From the IMG/VR virus record IMGVR_UViG_3300032820_000108, positions 1-24,846 of that record: a DNA stretch of 24,846 nucleotides, one strand, 5' to 3'. The translations under genes and the position numbers were made by a program. This document shows, piece after piece, positions 12,285 through 19,876 of this stretch (position 1 is the first letter of the stretch; each line of letters starts with the position of its first letter). The notes below the pieces were generated by a model. It worked only from the letters and a program-made list of their open reading frames with translations. It did no database searches and was not told where the DNA came from. This DNA comes from a virus.

Positions 12285-13736
12285 ATGGCACTTAACCCGT
12301 ATTTTCAACAAGGTTCTCGATCTGAACAAAATTTAGTACAAGATTTAATCAACGAACAGTTGAGGATGTATGGTGTTGAGGTGCATTATTTACCTCGTAA
12401 ATATATTTCAGAAACAACTGTAATAAGAGAAGTAGTTAGATCAAAATTTGATGATGCTTATCCCTTAGAAGCATATTTGGATACTTATGATGGTTATGGG
12501 GAAAATCCTGTAATATTATCAAAGTTTGGTATTGAGCAAAAGAATGAAGTAACATTAACTATTTCAAAAGATAGGTGGGAGACTTATATTGAACCTCTAA
12601 TGGAAAATGAGGCTAATGTAAAACTTACCACTAGACCTAAGGAAGGAGATCTAATTTATTTTCCGCTAGGTGATCGTTTATTTGAGATTAAGTTTGTAGA
12701 ACATGAAAAGCCTTTTTATCAACTTAAAAAGACTTATGTTTATACTCTTCGATGTGAACTCTTCGTTTACGAGGATGAGGTTATTGATACTGGGGTTGAG
12801 GAAATTGATGATTCTCTAATTGGAGATGATTATGATGGTGTAGCAGGAGATGGTCTTTCAACAATTATTGGACCCACTCAAACTCTTACTTTGGTGGGAA
12901 CAGGAGTTACAGCAACTGCTGTGACGGGTATTGTTACAGGTGGTATTAGATACATTGAACTTTCTAATAGAGGGGGAGGATATCTAGGTGGTCCGACTGT
13001 GGCTATTTCTTCTGCACCATCAGGTGGAATAACTGGTATCGCCACAGTACGCTTTATTGCAGGTATGGTAGTATGTAATAAGGCAGTTAATCCAGCCACA
13101 AGATCGATTCAGAATGTAGATTTACAAAATGCGGGGGCGGGTTATGCTATAACTAATCCTCCTGTAATTAGTATATTTGGTAATGGAGGAAGTGGTGCAG
13201 CAGGAACTGCGGTGGTAAGTAATGATGGTATAGGTATTGTAACCGTTACCGCAGGTGGTAGTGGATATACTACAAGTCCAACTATTTCCTTTACAAGTGA
13301 AATATTTAAGACTGGTGTTAGTACTGCTGGTGCTGCTGCTACTGCCGTCTTGGATTCTAGTGGCAGTATTACTGCTATCAATATAACTAATGCTGGTATG
13401 GGATATAGTACCGCACCCATATTAAATATCACTGGCGCAGGGGTAACCTATAGTGGTAACTTCGACTTTAATGAGGAAGTCGTTGGGTCTATCAGTAGCA
13501 CTACTGCTAGGGTAAGGACTTGGAATGCAGAAACCAATGTAATAGAATTGGCTTCGGTAAGTGGATCATGGACATTAGGAGAGAAATTAGTAGGTCAGCA
13601 ATCAGGTGCAGTACATGCAATAAGACAGATTGATTTGGATCCATTGGAAGATGGGTTTGCGGATAATTTGAAGATAGAAGAAGCAGCAGATGATATTTTA
13701 GACTTTACAGAACAGAATCCATTCGGGACACCATAA
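12285..13736 (+). CDS. gp14: Neck protein gp14, enlarged by inserted repeats
   Basis: Homologue of T4 gp14, the second neck protein. Residues 1-195 match T4 closely: MYGVEVHYLPRKYI (T4 RGVECYYVPREYV), AYLDTYDGYG, NEVTLTI, and EGDLIYFPLGDRLFEI (T4 EGDLIYFPMDNSLFEI). T4 gp14 has 256 residues; this one has 483. The surplus is a run of four GxGY units between about residues 200 and 385 (NRGGGYLG, NAGAGYAI, AGGSGYTT, NAGMGYST) followed by a unit of the type FNEEVVGSISSTTARV and LGEKLVGQQSGAV (about 390-445). The C-terminus (DPLEDGFADN to DFTEQNPFG) resumes the family-like tail. The insert probably projects from the neck surface; its function is unknown. AGGA at 12277-12280 precedes the start, inside the end of gp13. 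Confidence 0.93.
   Translation: MALNPYFQQGSRSEQNLVQDLINEQLRMYGVEVHYLPRKYISETTVIREVVRSKFDDAYPLEAYLDTYDGYGENPVILSKFGIEQKNEVTLTISKDRWETYIEPLMENEANVKLTTRPKEGDLIYFPLGDRLFEIKFVEHEKPFYQLKKTYVYTLRCELFVYEDEVIDTGVEEIDDSLIGDDYDGVAGDGLSTIIGPTQTLTLVGTGVTATAVTGIVTGGIRYIELSNRGGGYLGGPTVAISSAPSGGITGIATVRFIAGMVVCNKAVNPATRSIQNVDLQNAGAGYAITNPPVISIFGNGGSGAAGTAVVSNDGIGIVTVTAGGSGYTTSPTISFTSEIFKTGVSTAGAAATAVLDSSGSITAINITNAGMGYSTAPILNITGAGVTYSGNFDFNEEVVGSISSTTARVRTWNAETNVIELASVSGSWTLGEKLVGQQSGAVHAIRQIDLDPLEDGFADNLKIEEAADDILDFTEQNPFGTP
12885..13440 (+). repeat. Four GxGY protein modules inserted in gp14
   Basis: The translated segment holds four imperfect units of about 40-60 residues. Each has a strand, an N/G-x-G-x-GY turn, a P- or T-containing strand and a Gly/Ala-rich connector. 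The same unit recurs in three other genes of the window. The antisense strand stays open here only because of codon composition. Confidence 0.7.
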
Positions 13737-13739
13737 ATA
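13732..13739 (+). promoter_or_regulatory. Late promoter upstream of the His-repeat cassette, overlapping the gp14 stop
   Basis: CATAAATA includes the TAA stop of gp14 (13734-13736). It lies 37 bases before ATG 13777 and 9 bases before a sigma-70-like extended -10 box, so the cassette may have both an early and a late promoter. Confidence 0.55.
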
Positions 13740-13742
13740 TTT

Positions 13743-13753
13743 TGTGCTATAAT
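13743..13753 (+). promoter_or_regulatory. Extended -10 (sigma-70-like) promoter of the accessory cassette
   Basis: TGTGCTATAAT contains a perfect TATAAT with TG one base upstream, the extended -10 form that can work without a good -35 box; I see no TTGACA-like -35. The same 11 bases occur again at 24537-24547 before gp20. The predicted transcript start falls near 13760, in a short palindrome. Confidence 0.5.
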
Positions 13754-13776: not shown

Positions 13777-13950
13777 ATGAATAAAGATCTGGCACGTATC
13801 GCTGACAGTCTTGAAAGAATCGCTAAGATTCTTGAAGATGGTCCATTGCATATAAATATTGATCATGGTCATATTGAACATATCGACCATCTTGATCATG
13901 TCGATAATATTGATCATGGTGATGTAGATGTCCACAATCACGCATTTTAA
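13777..13950 (+). CDS. His/Asp-repeat miniprotein
   Basis: A 57-residue protein. Residues 1-20 form an amphipathic helix (MNKDLARIADSLERIAKILE), a type seen in many small phage proteins. Residues 24-57 are a near-perfect period-three tract: hydrophobic residue, Asp or Glu, then His (units such as IDH, IEH, IDH, LDH, VDN, IDH), with 9 His and 8 acidic residues in the last 34. Such a tract could bind divalent metal or stack as strands. The codon pattern and the helix argue that it is really translated. No Shine-Dalgarno site precedes the ATG; instead there is a pyrimidine run. It ends 2 bases before the DUF2997 gene, so it heads a three-gene cassette between gp14 and gp15. No function is known to me. 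Confidence 0.7.
   Translation: MNKDLARIADSLERIAKILEDGPLHINIDHGHIEHIDHLDHVDNIDHGDVDVHNHAF
13851..13858 (+). promoter_or_regulatory. Possible internal late promoter box in the miniprotein gene
   Basis: An exact TATAAATA lies inside the coding sequence, 94 bases before the DUF2997 start. It may fire for the downstream pair or may be a by-product of the codons for His-Ile-Asn-Ile. Confidence 0.25.
13855..13920 (+). repeat. 15-base direct repeat within the His-repeat tract
   Basis: AATATTGATCATGGT occurs at 13855-13869 and again at 13906-13920, 51 bases (17 codons) apart, in the same frame. The copies flank further related GAxCAT units, so the tract probably grew by local duplication. Confidence 0.8.
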
Positions 13951-13952
13951 TC

Positions 13953-14171
13953 ATGACAACACAACAAACTCTTAAGTTTAATATTCGACAAGATGGAACT
14001 GTAACCGAAGAGGTTATAGGTGCGGTTGGTAATGAATGTGAACAACTTACTTCTCTAATAGAAGAAAATCTAGGTGTTGTATCTCAAAAAGAACATAAAC
14101 CAGAATATTTTCAACAATTGGCGGGTGAGGTAGAAGTAGAAGAATGGTCCCACGATTCGGAGTGCGCGTAA
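13953..14171 (+). CDS. DUF2997 family small protein
   Basis: A 72-residue protein that I recognise as DUF2997 from the N-terminal strand pair (LKFNIRQDGTVTEEVIGAVG), the single Cys (C29 in NECEQLTSLIEENLG) and the acidic tail. DUF2997 genes commonly sit beside DUF1257/Ycf35 genes in cyanobacteria and other bacteria, exactly as here; the biochemical function is not established. Its stop overlaps the next ATG (TAATG), so the two are translationally coupled. Its presence inside a virion gene block suggests a host-derived auxiliary gene expressed late. Confidence 0.8.
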   Translation: MTTQQTLKFNIRQDGTVTEEVIGAVGNECEQLTSLIEENLGVVSQKEHKPEYFQQLAGEVEVEEWSHDSECA

Positions 14172-14551
14172 TGTCACATTTCAGTACTATAAAAACAAAA
14201 ATCAAAGAAAAACCTATTTTACTTGAAGCACTTCAATTATTAGGACATGATATAAATGAGGATGTTAAACTCGAAAATCCTCTTGATCATGAGCATAAAC
14301 AGTGGCAAGTGGATGTTGCTGTTGGTGATGACATTGGATTTCGTTTGAATAAAGACGGGGTTTATGAACTGGTTACAGATCTTCAAACTTGGAGTCAACC
14401 AATACCACCAGAAAGATTCATTGAAAAAGTAACCCAACAGTATGCAAGAATGAGTATTCATAATACTGTAAAAGAACTTGGGTTTGAAGTTGCAGAAGAA
14501 TGGGAGATGGATGACAACTCCATAGAATTGACTGTAACTCGTTGGGTATAA
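14171..14551 (+). CDS. ycf35: Ycf35-like protein (DUF1257)
   Basis: A 126-residue homologue of Ycf35, a conserved cyanobacterial and red-plastid protein of unknown function. The start MSHFSTIKTKIK is the family signature. LLEALQLLG, the HKQWQVDVAVGDDIGFRLNKDG-type core and the ending ELTVTRWV also fit, and the length equals the family's. An upstream in-frame ATG at 14144 would add 9 residues lying in the DUF2997 gene; ATG 14171, coupled to the DUF2997 stop, is preferred because the family starts there. It was likely acquired from a cyanobacterial host together with DUF2997. A role in host physiology during infection is inference. Confidence 0.85.
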   Translation: MSHFSTIKTKIKEKPILLEALQLLGHDINEDVKLENPLDHEHKQWQVDVAVGDDIGFRLNKDGVYELVTDLQTWSQPIPPERFIEKVTQQYARMSIHNTVKELGFEVAEEWEMDDNSIELTVTRWV

Positions 14552-16028: not shown

Positions 16029-18320
16029 GTGCCACTCAAGAAACCGTCAGAATTTTATATAAAGAATCCTAATACTTCACTAGATGAAGTTAAGGAGAAT
16101 GCTACTCCTGAAAAAGTAGAGAGAATTTCAGAAGCTTTCAATTCTTTTAAATCCAATTTTGATCATATTCAAGCATTAACTGATTTTACTAATACATTTG
16201 ATACATTTAAATCTAATGTTGAAAAAGTAGATACTTTATCAGAAAGTGTAGAAGAAATAAGAGAAGGAATTAAAGATCTTATTAATAAAGAAGATCTGGA
16301 TGGTGCAATGACTGCACAACTTCTTTTCGTAGAAGAGTCTATAAGAAATGTTCAAGATAAAGTCAAGACTTTAAATTCAAAAAGTATCTTAGATATAAAA
16401 ACGGATTTTGATGGATTAACTAAAACCGTAAAAGGTTTTATAGGAGAAGAAGTACCTGCTTATAAGAGATTAATTGTTGATTCTGAAACTAGAGTTGATA
16501 GTAGGTTTGTTACTTTCAAAGAGGATGTAAAGGATTCGATTGGAAGTTTAGTAACTACCCTTAATGATGATCTTGCTCAGATTGGTTCTGAGATTGAAGC
16601 AATCAATGAAGAGAGTCTTTCTTCGGTAAAGACCGAAGTTAAAGGAATTAAAGGACAGGTTGAATCTCTTTTAGAAAAGGTATTGCCAAAATATAAGAAG
16701 TTTTTTGCTGAGACTGAGGTAAGAACGGAAGAAAAGATTTCTGCTAATGAAAAATTAGTTAAAGAGACTGCAAAGGAGATAGAAGAAAAATATGAATCTC
16801 AGATCAAAGGAATCACAGAAGATTTTGATTCATTTATTAATGATGAAATTCCCCAATATAAAAAACTTTTAGTAGATTCTAAATTAAAGACCGAAGAAGA
16901 GGTTAAAGAAATATCTAAAAATCTAGATGAGCAAGTTTCTAAGATTAATAAGAATGTTGTTAATTTACAGCAAAGAGTTAATAATAAAGACATTGAAATT
17001 GATGAGGTTCTTTTAGAGAAAACTGCAACTATTGAAAAGTTAATTAATAAATCAAAAGATTTATCTAGAACCTATGATGATCTTTCTAGGGATTTTAAAG
17101 CAAAAGAAGTTCAATATGAAAATTCTCTGACCAATTTTGAAACTAAGATTAATACAATCGAAGAAAGTCTTACAGATAATATTTGTGAGTTACAAGAAAA
17201 TTTAGATACTAGTACTTCTAAGTATTATAATGAAATGAAAAATGCGGTAGTTCCTGCCGTTGTTAATTTTGAAAAGAATTTATCTTCTCAATTAAAAGAG
17301 ATGAAGATAGATTTTACTGTAAACGAAAAACATATTGGTTCTTTACAAGAAGAATTTAAAAATCTACTGACAAAATTAAAAGTAGATAATTTAGTAAAAG
17401 AAGTTACAGATACTAATAATGAAAATTTATTTAAGGTAAAGAAAGAATTAGTTGAGAAAGTTAATCGGTTAGAGCAACTCATAGAAAGATATGAGGAAAA
17501 AGTTTCTCCTACTGTGAGGGTAGGAAATACTGTTATTAATGAAGGTCTTTTAAATATTCCTCCTGATGTAAAGAATTCTGATCCCTTAACACCATTAGAT
17601 CAGAAATATGCTACTCTGGAAGATTTAGCATCTCATTATCGTTTATTTGTTAATAGAGTTCAGCAGCAGTTATCTGTTTTAGGTGGTGGTGGTGCTGTTT
17701 GGTTAGATGATCTTGATGATGTTGGTATTAAAACTCAATATAATGCTGGCGAACTTGAGAATGATATGGTGCTTACTTATGATAGCACCAAAAAGATTTG
17801 GTATGGAGCAGAAGGTGGCGGAGTTGCTGGTGCAGGTGGAACCTGGGGTTCTAATTCAGTAGGTGTCAGTACAACAAGGTATGTTGGTATTAATACATCT
17901 TCGGCACAAGAAGAATATCCCTTATATGTTGGAGCAACAGGATTAGCTAATACCACAGTTGTTGCCTATTTTGATGGAGATATTTCTGTTGCAGGAACTA
18001 TCTTTAAAGAGAATGTAAAAAATGTAGACTCTATTGGTTTTGTTACTGCTAGAAGTGGACTTAATGTTGGATATGATTATGATGGTGGTACTGGTGTAGG
18101 GGCTACTATATTGCCTAGCGGTAATGCAGTATTTGCTGGTGTAGTTACTGCTTCTACAATGTTCTATCCACCAGTAATTACTACTGTAGTAAGGGATGCT
18201 ACTACGGTTAATACAGGTGCTCTTATCTTTAATACTACTACGGGACAGTTAGAAATTTATAATGGAAGTTCATGGGTCGGTGTTGGTGCTGTTAATAACC
18301 TCACTATTTCTAACCTATAA
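16029..18320 (+). CDS. Long coiled-coil, fibre-like virion protein
   Basis: A 763-residue protein. It starts with GTG, supported by GGAG 9 bases upstream and by the N-terminus MPLKKPSEFYIKN. Residues about 25-500 are almost wholly charged amphipathic helix with heptad-like hydrophobics and no Cys apart from one (C388 area), the signature of a long rod. Three related units with P-x-Y-K (P143, P220, P275) interrupt it. Residues about 550-763 change to Gly/Thr/Val-rich beta sequence ending in GALIFNTTTGQLEIYNGSSW, a phrase common in phage fibre and adhesin tips. A trimeric fibre or whisker (fibritin-like) is the likely form. T4 has its whisker gene wac just before 13, and none is seen there in this window. 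Assignment is by architecture, not by homology. Confidence 0.8.
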   Translation: MPLKKPSEFYIKNPNTSLDEVKENATPEKVERISEAFNSFKSNFDHIQALTDFTNTFDTFKSNVEKVDTLSESVEEIREGIKDLINKEDLDGAMTAQLLFVEESIRNVQDKVKTLNSKSILDIKTDFDGLTKTVKGFIGEEVPAYKRLIVDSETRVDSRFVTFKEDVKDSIGSLVTTLNDDLAQIGSEIEAINEESLSSVKTEVKGIKGQVESLLEKVLPKYKKFFAETEVRTEEKISANEKLVKETAKEIEEKYESQIKGITEDFDSFINDEIPQYKKLLVDSKLKTEEEVKEISKNLDEQVSKINKNVVNLQQRVNNKDIEIDEVLLEKTATIEKLINKSKDLSRTYDDLSRDFKAKEVQYENSLTNFETKINTIEESLTDNICELQENLDTSTSKYYNEMKNAVVPAVVNFEKNLSSQLKEMKIDFTVNEKHIGSLQEEFKNLLTKLKVDNLVKEVTDTNNENLFKVKKELVEKVNRLEQLIERYEEKVSPTVRVGNTVINEGLLNIPPDVKNSDPLTPLDQKYATLEDLASHYRLFVNRVQQQLSVLGGGGAVWLDDLDDVGIKTQYNAGELENDMVLTYDSTKKIWYGAEGGGVAGAGGTWGSNSVGVSTTRYVGINTSSAQEEYPLYVGATGLANTTVVAYFDGDISVAGTIFKENVKNVDSIGFVTARSGLNVGYDYDGGTGVGATILPSGNAVFAGVVTASTMFYPPVITTVVRDATTVNTGALIFNTTTGQLEIYNGSSWVGVGAVNNLTISNL

Positions 18321-18321
18321 T

Positions 18322-18717
18322 ATGAAATCTTTTAAAGAGTTTCTTCAAGAACAACCTACTAACTGGACTCGTTCCAATGTTAATGTTCCAGGTTTCAGTG
18401 CAGATGCCGAAGATCCTGTTGCTGGATTCGATGTGAAACTTTTTCCTGATTCATTAAAATTGCATAATAGGAGTATTGGGGATATGGATTTATTATCTCA
18501 GGATTTTCAGACTCCCGAAGAAATAAACAAACCGATTTATGCAAATTGGGGTGGTGTATATCCCGTTTTACACCTAACCTTAGATAGTTCCGCAGGAGAT
18601 GGTGAATCTATCGATACTATGGTAAAAGCATCAAACGAGTATCTGGATTTTATATCTAGAAATACTCAGAACGCAGTAAGAAAACAAAATCTTAAGGGAT
18701 TCCTAAATAAAAGATAG
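18322..18717 (+). CDS. Unknown small protein with capsid-targeting-like N-terminus
   Basis: A 131-residue protein. An in-frame ATG at 18262 lies inside the upstream gene; ATG 18322 is preferred because it follows that gene's stop by one base and gives MKSFKEFLQE, an N-terminus common in T4-like marine phage proteins. It resembles the T4 internal-protein targeting peptide MKTYQEFIAE, which directs proteins into the prohead and is cut by protease gp21 after the Glu. The remainder contains GFDVKLFPDSLKLHNRSIGD, IYANWGGVYPVLHLTLD and a basic C-terminal helix (QNAVRKQNLKGFLNKR). It lies between a fibre-like gene and the DUF192 gene near the packaging genes. A role as an internal head or assembly protein is inferred. 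Confidence 0.75.
   Translation: MKSFKEFLQEQPTNWTRSNVNVPGFSADAEDPVAGFDVKLFPDSLKLHNRSIGDMDLLSQDFQTPEEINKPIYANWGGVYPVLHLTLDSSAGDGESIDTMVKASNEYLDFISRNTQNAVRKQNLKGFLNKR
18703..18709 (+). promoter_or_regulatory. Possible late promoter before the DUF192 gene
   Basis: CTAAATA falls in the last codons of the upstream gene, 24 bases before ATG 18734, the same spacing as other late boxes in the window. Confidence 0.4.
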
Positions 18718-18733
18718 GGTATAGGTTTTTCCC

Positions 18734-19876
18734 ATGAAGGATTGTAAGCAAGGTTATTATTTCTGCACGAAAGAAAAGAAGTGTATGCCAATTCCTAGTG
18801 GAATGAGAATTGGATATGGTGGATGGTTAGAGCCTAAGAAAAAGAAAAATGGTAATGGAAAAAATGGTAATGGGAACGGTAACGGACATTCTAACGGACA
18901 TGGGAATGGTGCGAATGGTAATGGAAATGGTTCTAATGGCTCTGGTAATGGGGGGAATGGTGGTAGCAATGGTGGCGGCGTTTCTGAAGCAGTAACTGAT
19001 GCTCAATTAAAAGCTCAGGAAAAGGCAGTATTTGAGTTAGAAAAGAAAGAAGCAAATGCAGATAGAGCAAAAGCAATGAAAAAACGTCAGAAGGAATTAG
19101 GTGAAGAGAAGAAAAAAGGTCTTTGGGATAATATTCATGCTAAAAGAAAGCGTGGTGAGAAACCAGCAAAACCTGGTGATAAAGATTATCCAAAGACTCT
19201 TAATGTAGAAGAAAGAATAAGACTTCCTCTTAAATTAGAAGTTCCTCAGACTAATACAGAGTTTAGATTAGGTCTTATGTTCAGAGAAAGTCTAGACTAT
19301 GACAGGGGGATGCTTTTTATTTTTGAGGAAGTGGGACAAAAATCTTTTCATATGAAAGATACTCGTATTCCACTTGATATTGCATTTATTAAGGAAGATG
19401 GAACTATTGAAAGTATTAAACCTTTGAATCCCTTTACTCTTTTACCAGTATCTTCTGATGGTGATGTTGTATCAGCAGTGGAAGTAAATAGAGGATGGTT
19501 TGCTGAAAATAACGTCCAAGAAGGAGATGCATTACAAATTGGAAATGCAACAGGCGGTCTTGCTTTTGAAGTTATAGATCTTATTAAACCAGAACCTCTT
19601 GTACCTACTCAACAAACTGTTGAATGGGAAGATCCAGCAGAACTCACAGAAATACGTAGAGTTCCCAACTATAATAAACCAGGAAATATATTGCAAATAT
19701 ATTTGGCATGGAGAGGAAGAACAATGAGTATTCAAATGTTCTTCCCATCTGCGAAGAAACCATCTCGTAAAGAGGTATTAGATCAATTGCAAAAGGTATA
19801 TCCTACTGCTAAACTTCATAGTTTTGAAGTAACAGATTATGATCCTCAAGCACCTCTTCTTCAAACAGGAAATTAA
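18734..19876 (+). CDS. DUF192-containing virion/assembly protein with Gly/Asn-rich linker
   Basis: A 380-residue multidomain protein. Residues 1-35 hold three Cys (C4, C11, C17) in a segment with YYFCTKEKKCMPIPSGM, a leader seen in several marine phage proteins. Residues about 37-82 are nearly pure Gly/Asn with some Ser and His. VSEAV (83-87) resembles a prohead protease site. Next comes a charged helix and a basic segment (GLWDNIHAKRKRGEKPAKPG). Residues about 170-285 are a DUF192 domain (RLGLMFRES, GMLFIFE, FHMKDTRIPLDIAFI, VEVNRGWF, the family's usual WMKNT replaced by HMKDT). The C-terminal 75 residues (LQIYLAWRGRTMSIQMFFPS, then RKEVLDQLQKVYPTAK) form a separate alpha/beta unit. DUF192 function is unknown. 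It is encoded just before gp17, and I infer a head-assembly or virion role. Confidence 0.8.
   Translation: MKDCKQGYYFCTKEKKCMPIPSGMRIGYGGWLEPKKKKNGNGKNGNGNGNGHSNGHGNGANGNGNGSNGSGNGGNGGSNGGGVSEAVTDAQLKAQEKAVFELEKKEANADRAKAMKKRQKELGEEKKKGLWDNIHAKRKRGEKPAKPGDKDYPKTLNVEERIRLPLKLEVPQTNTEFRLGLMFRESLDYDRGMLFIFEEVGQKSFHMKDTRIPLDIAFIKEDGTIESIKPLNPFTLLPVSSDGDVVSAVEVNRGWFAENNVQEGDALQIGNATGGLAFEVIDLIKPEPLVPTQQTVEWEDPAELTEIRRVPNYNKPGNILQIYLAWRGRTMSIQMFFPSAKKPSRKEVLDQLQKVYPTAKLHSFEVTDYDPQAPLLQTGN
18848..18981 (+). repeat. Gly/Asn-coding low-complexity repeat
   Basis: The DNA consists of degenerate GGTAATGG / GGGAATGG units coding alternating Gly and Asn with occasional His, Ser and Ala. It links the Cys-containing leader to the VSEAV site of the DUF192 protein and is likely variable in length between relatives. 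Confidence 0.85.

Follow-up and report, generated by a model that had tools for sequence, protein, structure and literature searches.

What does a protein of 57 residues, whose C-terminal tail consists of about 20% His and about 20% Asp plus Glu, do between two virion genes of a marine cyanophage and directly upstream of genes for DUF2997 and DUF1257 (Ycf35)? The gene, here called T57, lies on a 24.8-kb piece of DNA from a viral record, which derives from a T4-like marine cyanophage, and this whole stretch of analysed DNA is hereafter referred to as the window. Ycf35 (DUF1257) and DUF2997 are ancient orphan families of cyanobacteria and plastids that have been linked to iron and redox stress, and a tiny conserved protein found beside both of them in some twenty genomic settings offers a compact, testable route to their role.

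Results

Proteins of the window matched the baseplate wedge, gp13 (Ad2), gp14 (Hc2), gp15 (tail sheath stabiliser), gp16, gp17, sheath and tube families, and its DNA resembles that of myophages of Synechococcus and Prochlorococcus. T57 is located between gp14 and gp15 and is followed directly by the DUF2997 and DUF1257/Ycf35 genes, where the DUF1257 start overlaps the DUF2997 stop by 1 nt; the next gene in the window is gp15, and no ferredoxin gene stands at this place (Table 1).

Table 1. Positions in the window of T57, its parts and the genes and sites next to it
Feature	Position	Strand	Evidence or remark
Sigma-70-type promoter-like site GGGACA-N17-TATAAT	13725..13753	+	Overlaps the end of gp14; 23 nt before the ATG
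T57 (57-aa gene)	13777..13950, including stop codon	+	ORF list, PHROG 35332, relatives, pN/pS
N-terminal amphipathic helix, residues 3-20, heptad a=Leu, d=Ile, e=Ala	13783..13836	+	Predicted; AlphaFold2 pLDDT about 86-89
15-base direct repeat AATATTGATCATGGT, copy 1	13855..13869	+	Exact match, not beyond codon usage
HxH motif IDHGHIE, residues 28-34	13858..13878	+	[IV][DE]HxH[IV][DE] in 85/85 non-redundant members
Uninterrupted triplet run IEH-IDH-LDH-VDN-IDH, residues 33-47	13873..13917	+	Translation; unit number varies among relatives
15-base direct repeat, copy 2	13906..13920	+	Exact in the window, not exact in L003-L005
C-terminal element GDVDVHNHAF, residues 48-57	13918..13947	+	His53 at -5; aromatic last residue
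DUF2997 gene (cassette gene 2)	13953..14171	+	Pfam PF11211, E=4.9e-18
DUF1257/Ycf35 gene (cassette gene 3)	14171..14551	+	Pfam PF06868, E=5e-21

Regarding the other virion genes of the window, the gp14 neck protein (12285-13736) bears a long C-terminal Gly-rich repeat extension with additional matches to baseplate, fibre and other structural families of the virion. This part of the gp14 family is also hit by the baseplate wedge protein encoded upstream (224-1390), and as judged by these matches the extension is probably a repeat module common to neck and baseplate proteins. Three ORFs lie between gp16 and gp17 (16029-19876): one of 763 aa, which is fibre-like and starts with GTG, one of 151 aa that matched nothing in PHROG, and one of 380 aa.

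Residues 1-56 of T57 matched positions 2-49 of the 50-position profile of PHROG 35332 (E=4e-6), a cyanophage family without described function; for this PHROG entry neither a structure nor a cassette was found, and scans of T57 against Pfam and NCBIfam gave nothing above cut-off. Viral contigs were then scanned with four queries, namely the window protein, an alignment, the P-SSM2 member (PSSM2_256) and the P-TIM40 member (PTIM40_8). The resulting family comprised 253 complete members (137 distinct, 85 non-redundant), most of which are 43-68 aa long. Matches in Pseudomonas KIL and Vibrio phages look like chance, the KIL1 match being in an unrelated protein of 195 aa. Among cellular sequences, query A1 gave no homologue and the P-SSM2-type query only a short helix peptide; neither gave a counterpart of the tail. 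This peptide, ISRELGRIASALERIANSLEK, is encoded by a short reading frame in two Peptostreptococcus genomes (L336 and L337) and is almost identical to the T57 helix, without a tail; the similarity suggests that the Leu/Ile/Ala helix may recur independently. One copy of T57 was present in 20 of the 21 matching phage records, and two copies occurred in one 51.7-kb contig, on which a long HGH type and a P-SSM2 type (L011 and L157) each have their own downstream DUF2997-DUF1257 pair.

The sequence-only reading had described residues 24-57 (13846-13947; LHINIDHGHIEHIDHLDHVDNIDHGDVDVHNHAF) as a hydrophobic-Asp-His repeat of period three kept almost without error. Its coordinates are right and [ILV][DE][HN] triplets are indeed enriched (six in the 34 tract residues, a number that 20,000 random rearrangements of these residues never reached), but an uninterrupted three-residue repeat is confined to residues 33-47, and residues 25-32 (HINIDHGH) and 48-55 (GDVDVHNH) mostly alternate with period two. 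The spacings of hydrophobic residues counted from I28 were 5, 3, 3, 3, 3, 5 and 2, the longest period-3 hydrophobic chain had a p of about 0.02 in shuffles, and in the family as a whole 2, 3 and 5 make up most of the spacings, each of them being frequent. A uniform period-three beta solenoid is ruled out by this hydrophobic spacing. The period-three claim is overstated; the tract itself is real and conserved. The 15-base direct repeat that had been cited in its support is present exactly, with its copies 51 bases apart, but it does not support the triplet register because 51 bases correspond to 17 codons and are no multiple of 9 bases. Moreover, when synonymous codons are shuffled without changing the protein, 13% of the shuffles contain a repeat of this length, and the exact repeat is absent from the three relatives L003, L004 and L005. 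A duplication scar was also considered as the origin of the repeat and rejected, since codon usage alone suffices.

More than 80 IMG/VR relatives keep the tract, and its repeat number varies among them, mostly by three-residue steps. Within one C-terminal type, tract lengths of 26/29/32, 24/30, 31/34/40 or 25/28/31 residues were observed, which are not phylogenetically independent counts; other jumps in length correspond to one 8-residue block (e.g. IDHGHIEA) or to such a block plus further triplets. The number of IDH triplets varies widely, down to none or one, and the shortest members have almost no IDH triplets and no more than one or two HxH motifs. Apart from the HxH motif listed in Table 1, His at position -5 and a final F, W or Y were found in all 85 non-redundant members, and Cys in none of them. 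The value of pN/pS was 0.095 over the T57 family (103 nearest-neighbour pairs), with 0.151 for the helix and 0.065 for the tract: the protein is under strong purifying selection, and the tract most of all. Such selection on the reading frame indicates that the tract is translated as well as conserved; neither of the two findings named as fatal to the sequence-only reading, loss of the tract in homologues or a lack of translation, applies.

In two AlphaFold2 monomer models (84 and 70 relatives), a confident helix was predicted at residues 3-20 and 3-22, respectively, and the tail was extended without strands (pLDDT 50-60). On the basis of these models, the tail may be disordered, or its folding may require an oligomer, a metal or a partner. 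The heptad pattern of the helix, with Leu at a, Ile at d and Ala at e, is kept in at least 84 of the 85 members (84-85 of 85 at the positions I/A/L/I/A/L). A PDB sequence search with single T57 members (phmmer) gave no match, neither to a solved fibre nor to a spike. The T57 profile matched only coiled coils in the PDB, through the helix; nearly all were designed Leu/Ile/Ala peptides, by name mostly tetramers to heptamers or antiparallel bundles, and these matches argue for self-association, though not specifically for a trimer. Likewise, Ala at e and often at g is a pattern of designed assemblies of four to seven chains and does not clearly indicate a trimer.

T57 precedes DUF2997 and DUF1257 in 103 contigs with 49 distinct T57 proteins, and the gap between T57 and DUF2997 is less than 60 nt in 86 of these contigs. 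The cassette is bordered by 22 upstream and 21 downstream neighbour families, indicating that the trio moves as a unit; as the contigs are partly redundant, it is safer to rely on the numbers of distinct proteins and families. Neighbours that could be named include Hsp20, photosystem II D1, a 2OG-Fe(II) oxygenase and baseplate and tube genes. DUF2997 adjoins DUF1257 at 63 of 63 DUF1257 loci with enough upstream sequence; T57 is present at 20 of these loci and missing at 43, and more than half of the T57 genes are not beside DUF2997, which together make T57 an optional partner. Outside the cassette, T57 was found among replication-like or other accessory genes (neighbours named by eye from sequence). 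At one locus (L018) the gene order is reversed, with T57 downstream of DUF2997-DUF1257, and at two others (L087 and L088) the cassette stands directly 3' of psbA (photosystem II D1), behind a promoter-like TTGACA-16-TATAAT.

Taken alone, the GGGACA-17-TATAAT site upstream of T57 in the window is within chance. When 44 non-redundant cassette copies of T57 were inspected, however, a TTGACA/TATAAT-type site within 110 nt upstream was found for 22 of them; the corresponding figure was 64 of 593 for other ORFs (Fisher p about 1e-9) and 47 of 880 for shuffles, and the TATAAT box usually ended 21-23 nt before the T57 ATG. In cyanomyoviruses, transcription of early genes is believed to depend on the host RNA polymerase, unmodified, acting at sigma-70-type promoters (PMC2984593), and from its promoters early expression of T57 is likely. 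The arrangement has the appearance of an accessory cassette that is portable and driven by a host promoter, and that in the window was inserted between gp14 and gp15. Family, cassette and promoter had all escaped the sequence-only reading.

Discussion

The reading that we tentatively prefer, at a probability of about 0.35, is that T57 forms an oligomeric helix with a metal-binding HxH tail and works together with DUF2997 and Ycf35 in an iron or redox role. The universal occurrence of [IV][DE]HxH[IV][DE] and of His at -5 makes a metal site plausible, and many three-His metal sites consist of an HxH pair and a remote third His. In this mechanism, the Leu/Ile/Ala heptad helix would oligomerise and the extended C-terminal tail would carry the metal site, for which the invariant HxH pair His30 and His32, and probably also His53, are the candidate ligands. 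Either three chains would pool their HxH pairs into a six-His site of the iron type, or each chain would build its own three-His site by adding the C-terminal His, and both arrangements agree with the invariant residues. The IDH triplets between the ligands would serve as a spacer of adjustable length. T57 would most likely supply or hold a transition metal, with iron as the first choice, for DUF2997/Ycf35, or dock onto them, during infection. We infer the metal binding, the oligomer and the partnership, the link to iron being one of association. It comes from the cyanobacterial cluster duf2997-ycf35-fed7, which is conserved and whose Fed7 is induced by iron starvation and needed to tolerate iron limitation, oxidative stress and metal stress (PMC4284462); the iron/redox reading of T57 is drawn from the presence of Fed7 in this host operon of the cassette partners. 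Ycf35 has also been reported as up-regulated in copper/iron deduction proteomes (PMC8141849). The lack of any known biochemical function for DUF2997 and DUF1257 counts against this reading, and no PDB relatives of either were found. The optional nature of the partnership, a heptad pattern that does not point clearly to a trimer and a tail that may be disordered also speak against it.

A possible alternative, though one we consider on the unlikely side, is that T57 is an early host-takeover adaptor, in which the helix and the conserved [T]HxK-aromatic C-terminus would bind a host or phage protein and the His/Asp tract would be a flexible polar linker without metal. The small size, the early-type promoter, the unstructured tail in the AlphaFold2 models, the conserved C-terminal aromatic residue and the variable length of the linker are all in line with this idea. 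However, a mere linker would not be expected to keep the HxH motif in every member, nor to have a pN/pS below that of the helix.

It is doubtful that T57 is a minor virion protein, i.e. a miniature trimeric spike or fibre tip in which a helix bundle would be followed by a beta needle with HxH-bound iron, like the T4 gp37 needle or the P2 gpV tip. The HxH motif and the three-residue steps in tract length would suit a trimeric needle, T57 sits among neck and tail genes in the window, and beta-layers next to coiled coils occur mainly in phage trimers (PMC4786415). Against this, most relatives lie among accessory or replication genes outside the structural block, often behind sigma-70-like promoters, and most cultured cyanophages that share the structural genes have no T57 (27 phage records match T57 versus 445 for the neck region). 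A bolder combination, which we regard as improbable and speculative, would make T57 a tiny self-assembling HxH protein, whose helix bundle stacks three-residue beta layers of several chains into a needle with an iron site, its length tuned by triplet insertion, acting early as an iron-delivery or iron-sensing partner of Ycf35/DUF2997.

The polyvalent metal buffer offered by the sequence-only reading, that is, a sink whose capacity would be set by the number of IDH units, agrees with the His and Asp+Glu content of the tail and with the varying unit number. It fits poorly with a single copy in nearly all matching records and with IDH numbers that can fall to none or one: the family retains one HxH and one C-terminal His, hence a site and not a capacity, and we consider a buffer very unlikely. 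That the tract is a chance or low-complexity translation without function, for which the explanation of the DNA repeat by codon usage would speak, has a negligible probability, as it is refuted by pN/pS, unless the substitution pattern is an artefact, and is opposed by the invariant motifs and the conserved synteny.

The literature searched contained no paper that joins cyanophages with ycf35, DUF1257 or DUF2997, and none on the locus tag PSSM2_256. Within this literature, the cassette and the universal T57 motifs appear to be new; cyanophage accessory cassettes with host-derived partners are already known as a kind. For marine cyanophages living in iron-poor water, the cassette is a candidate set of genes for handling iron. 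If the tail folds as proposed, with its three-residue length steps and invariant HxH, it would be an instructive minimal design of a metal protein, and if the self-assembling needle were true, T57 would provide a molecular handle on the plastid and cyanobacterial families Ycf35 and DUF2997.

Three known systems can be compared with T57. The first is the cyanobacterial duf2997-ycf35-fed7 cluster, in which DUF2997 and DUF1257 are adjacent in the same order as in the phage; the phage cassette differs in having T57 first and no ferredoxin seen. T57 as a substitute for the ferredoxin was ruled out, because it has no Cys.

The second is the trimeric phage fibres and spikes in which HxH pairs form octahedral six-His Fe(II) sites, namely T4 gp37, the R-pyocin fibre shaft, P2 gpV and phi92 (PMC6116203); HxH iron sites have also been proposed in marine phage fibres (PMC11705849). 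T57 shares with them an HxH on a possibly extended strand, of which three pairs would give six His in a possible trimer, whereas it differs in its small size (43-68 aa in most members), in being mostly an accessory gene with a host-type promoter and in showing no detected sequence similarity.

The third is the alpha/beta coiled coils, in which a one-turn beta-layer of three residues adjoins a coiled coil, an arrangement described chiefly for phage trimers (Hartmann et al. 2016, PMC4786415). The long consecutive triplets and the His/Asp content of T57 are not among the beta-layers listed there, and its AlphaFold2 monomer is without a strand; the resemblance lies in a heptad helix that is followed by three-residue hydrophobic steps, a beta-layer likewise taking three residues per chain.
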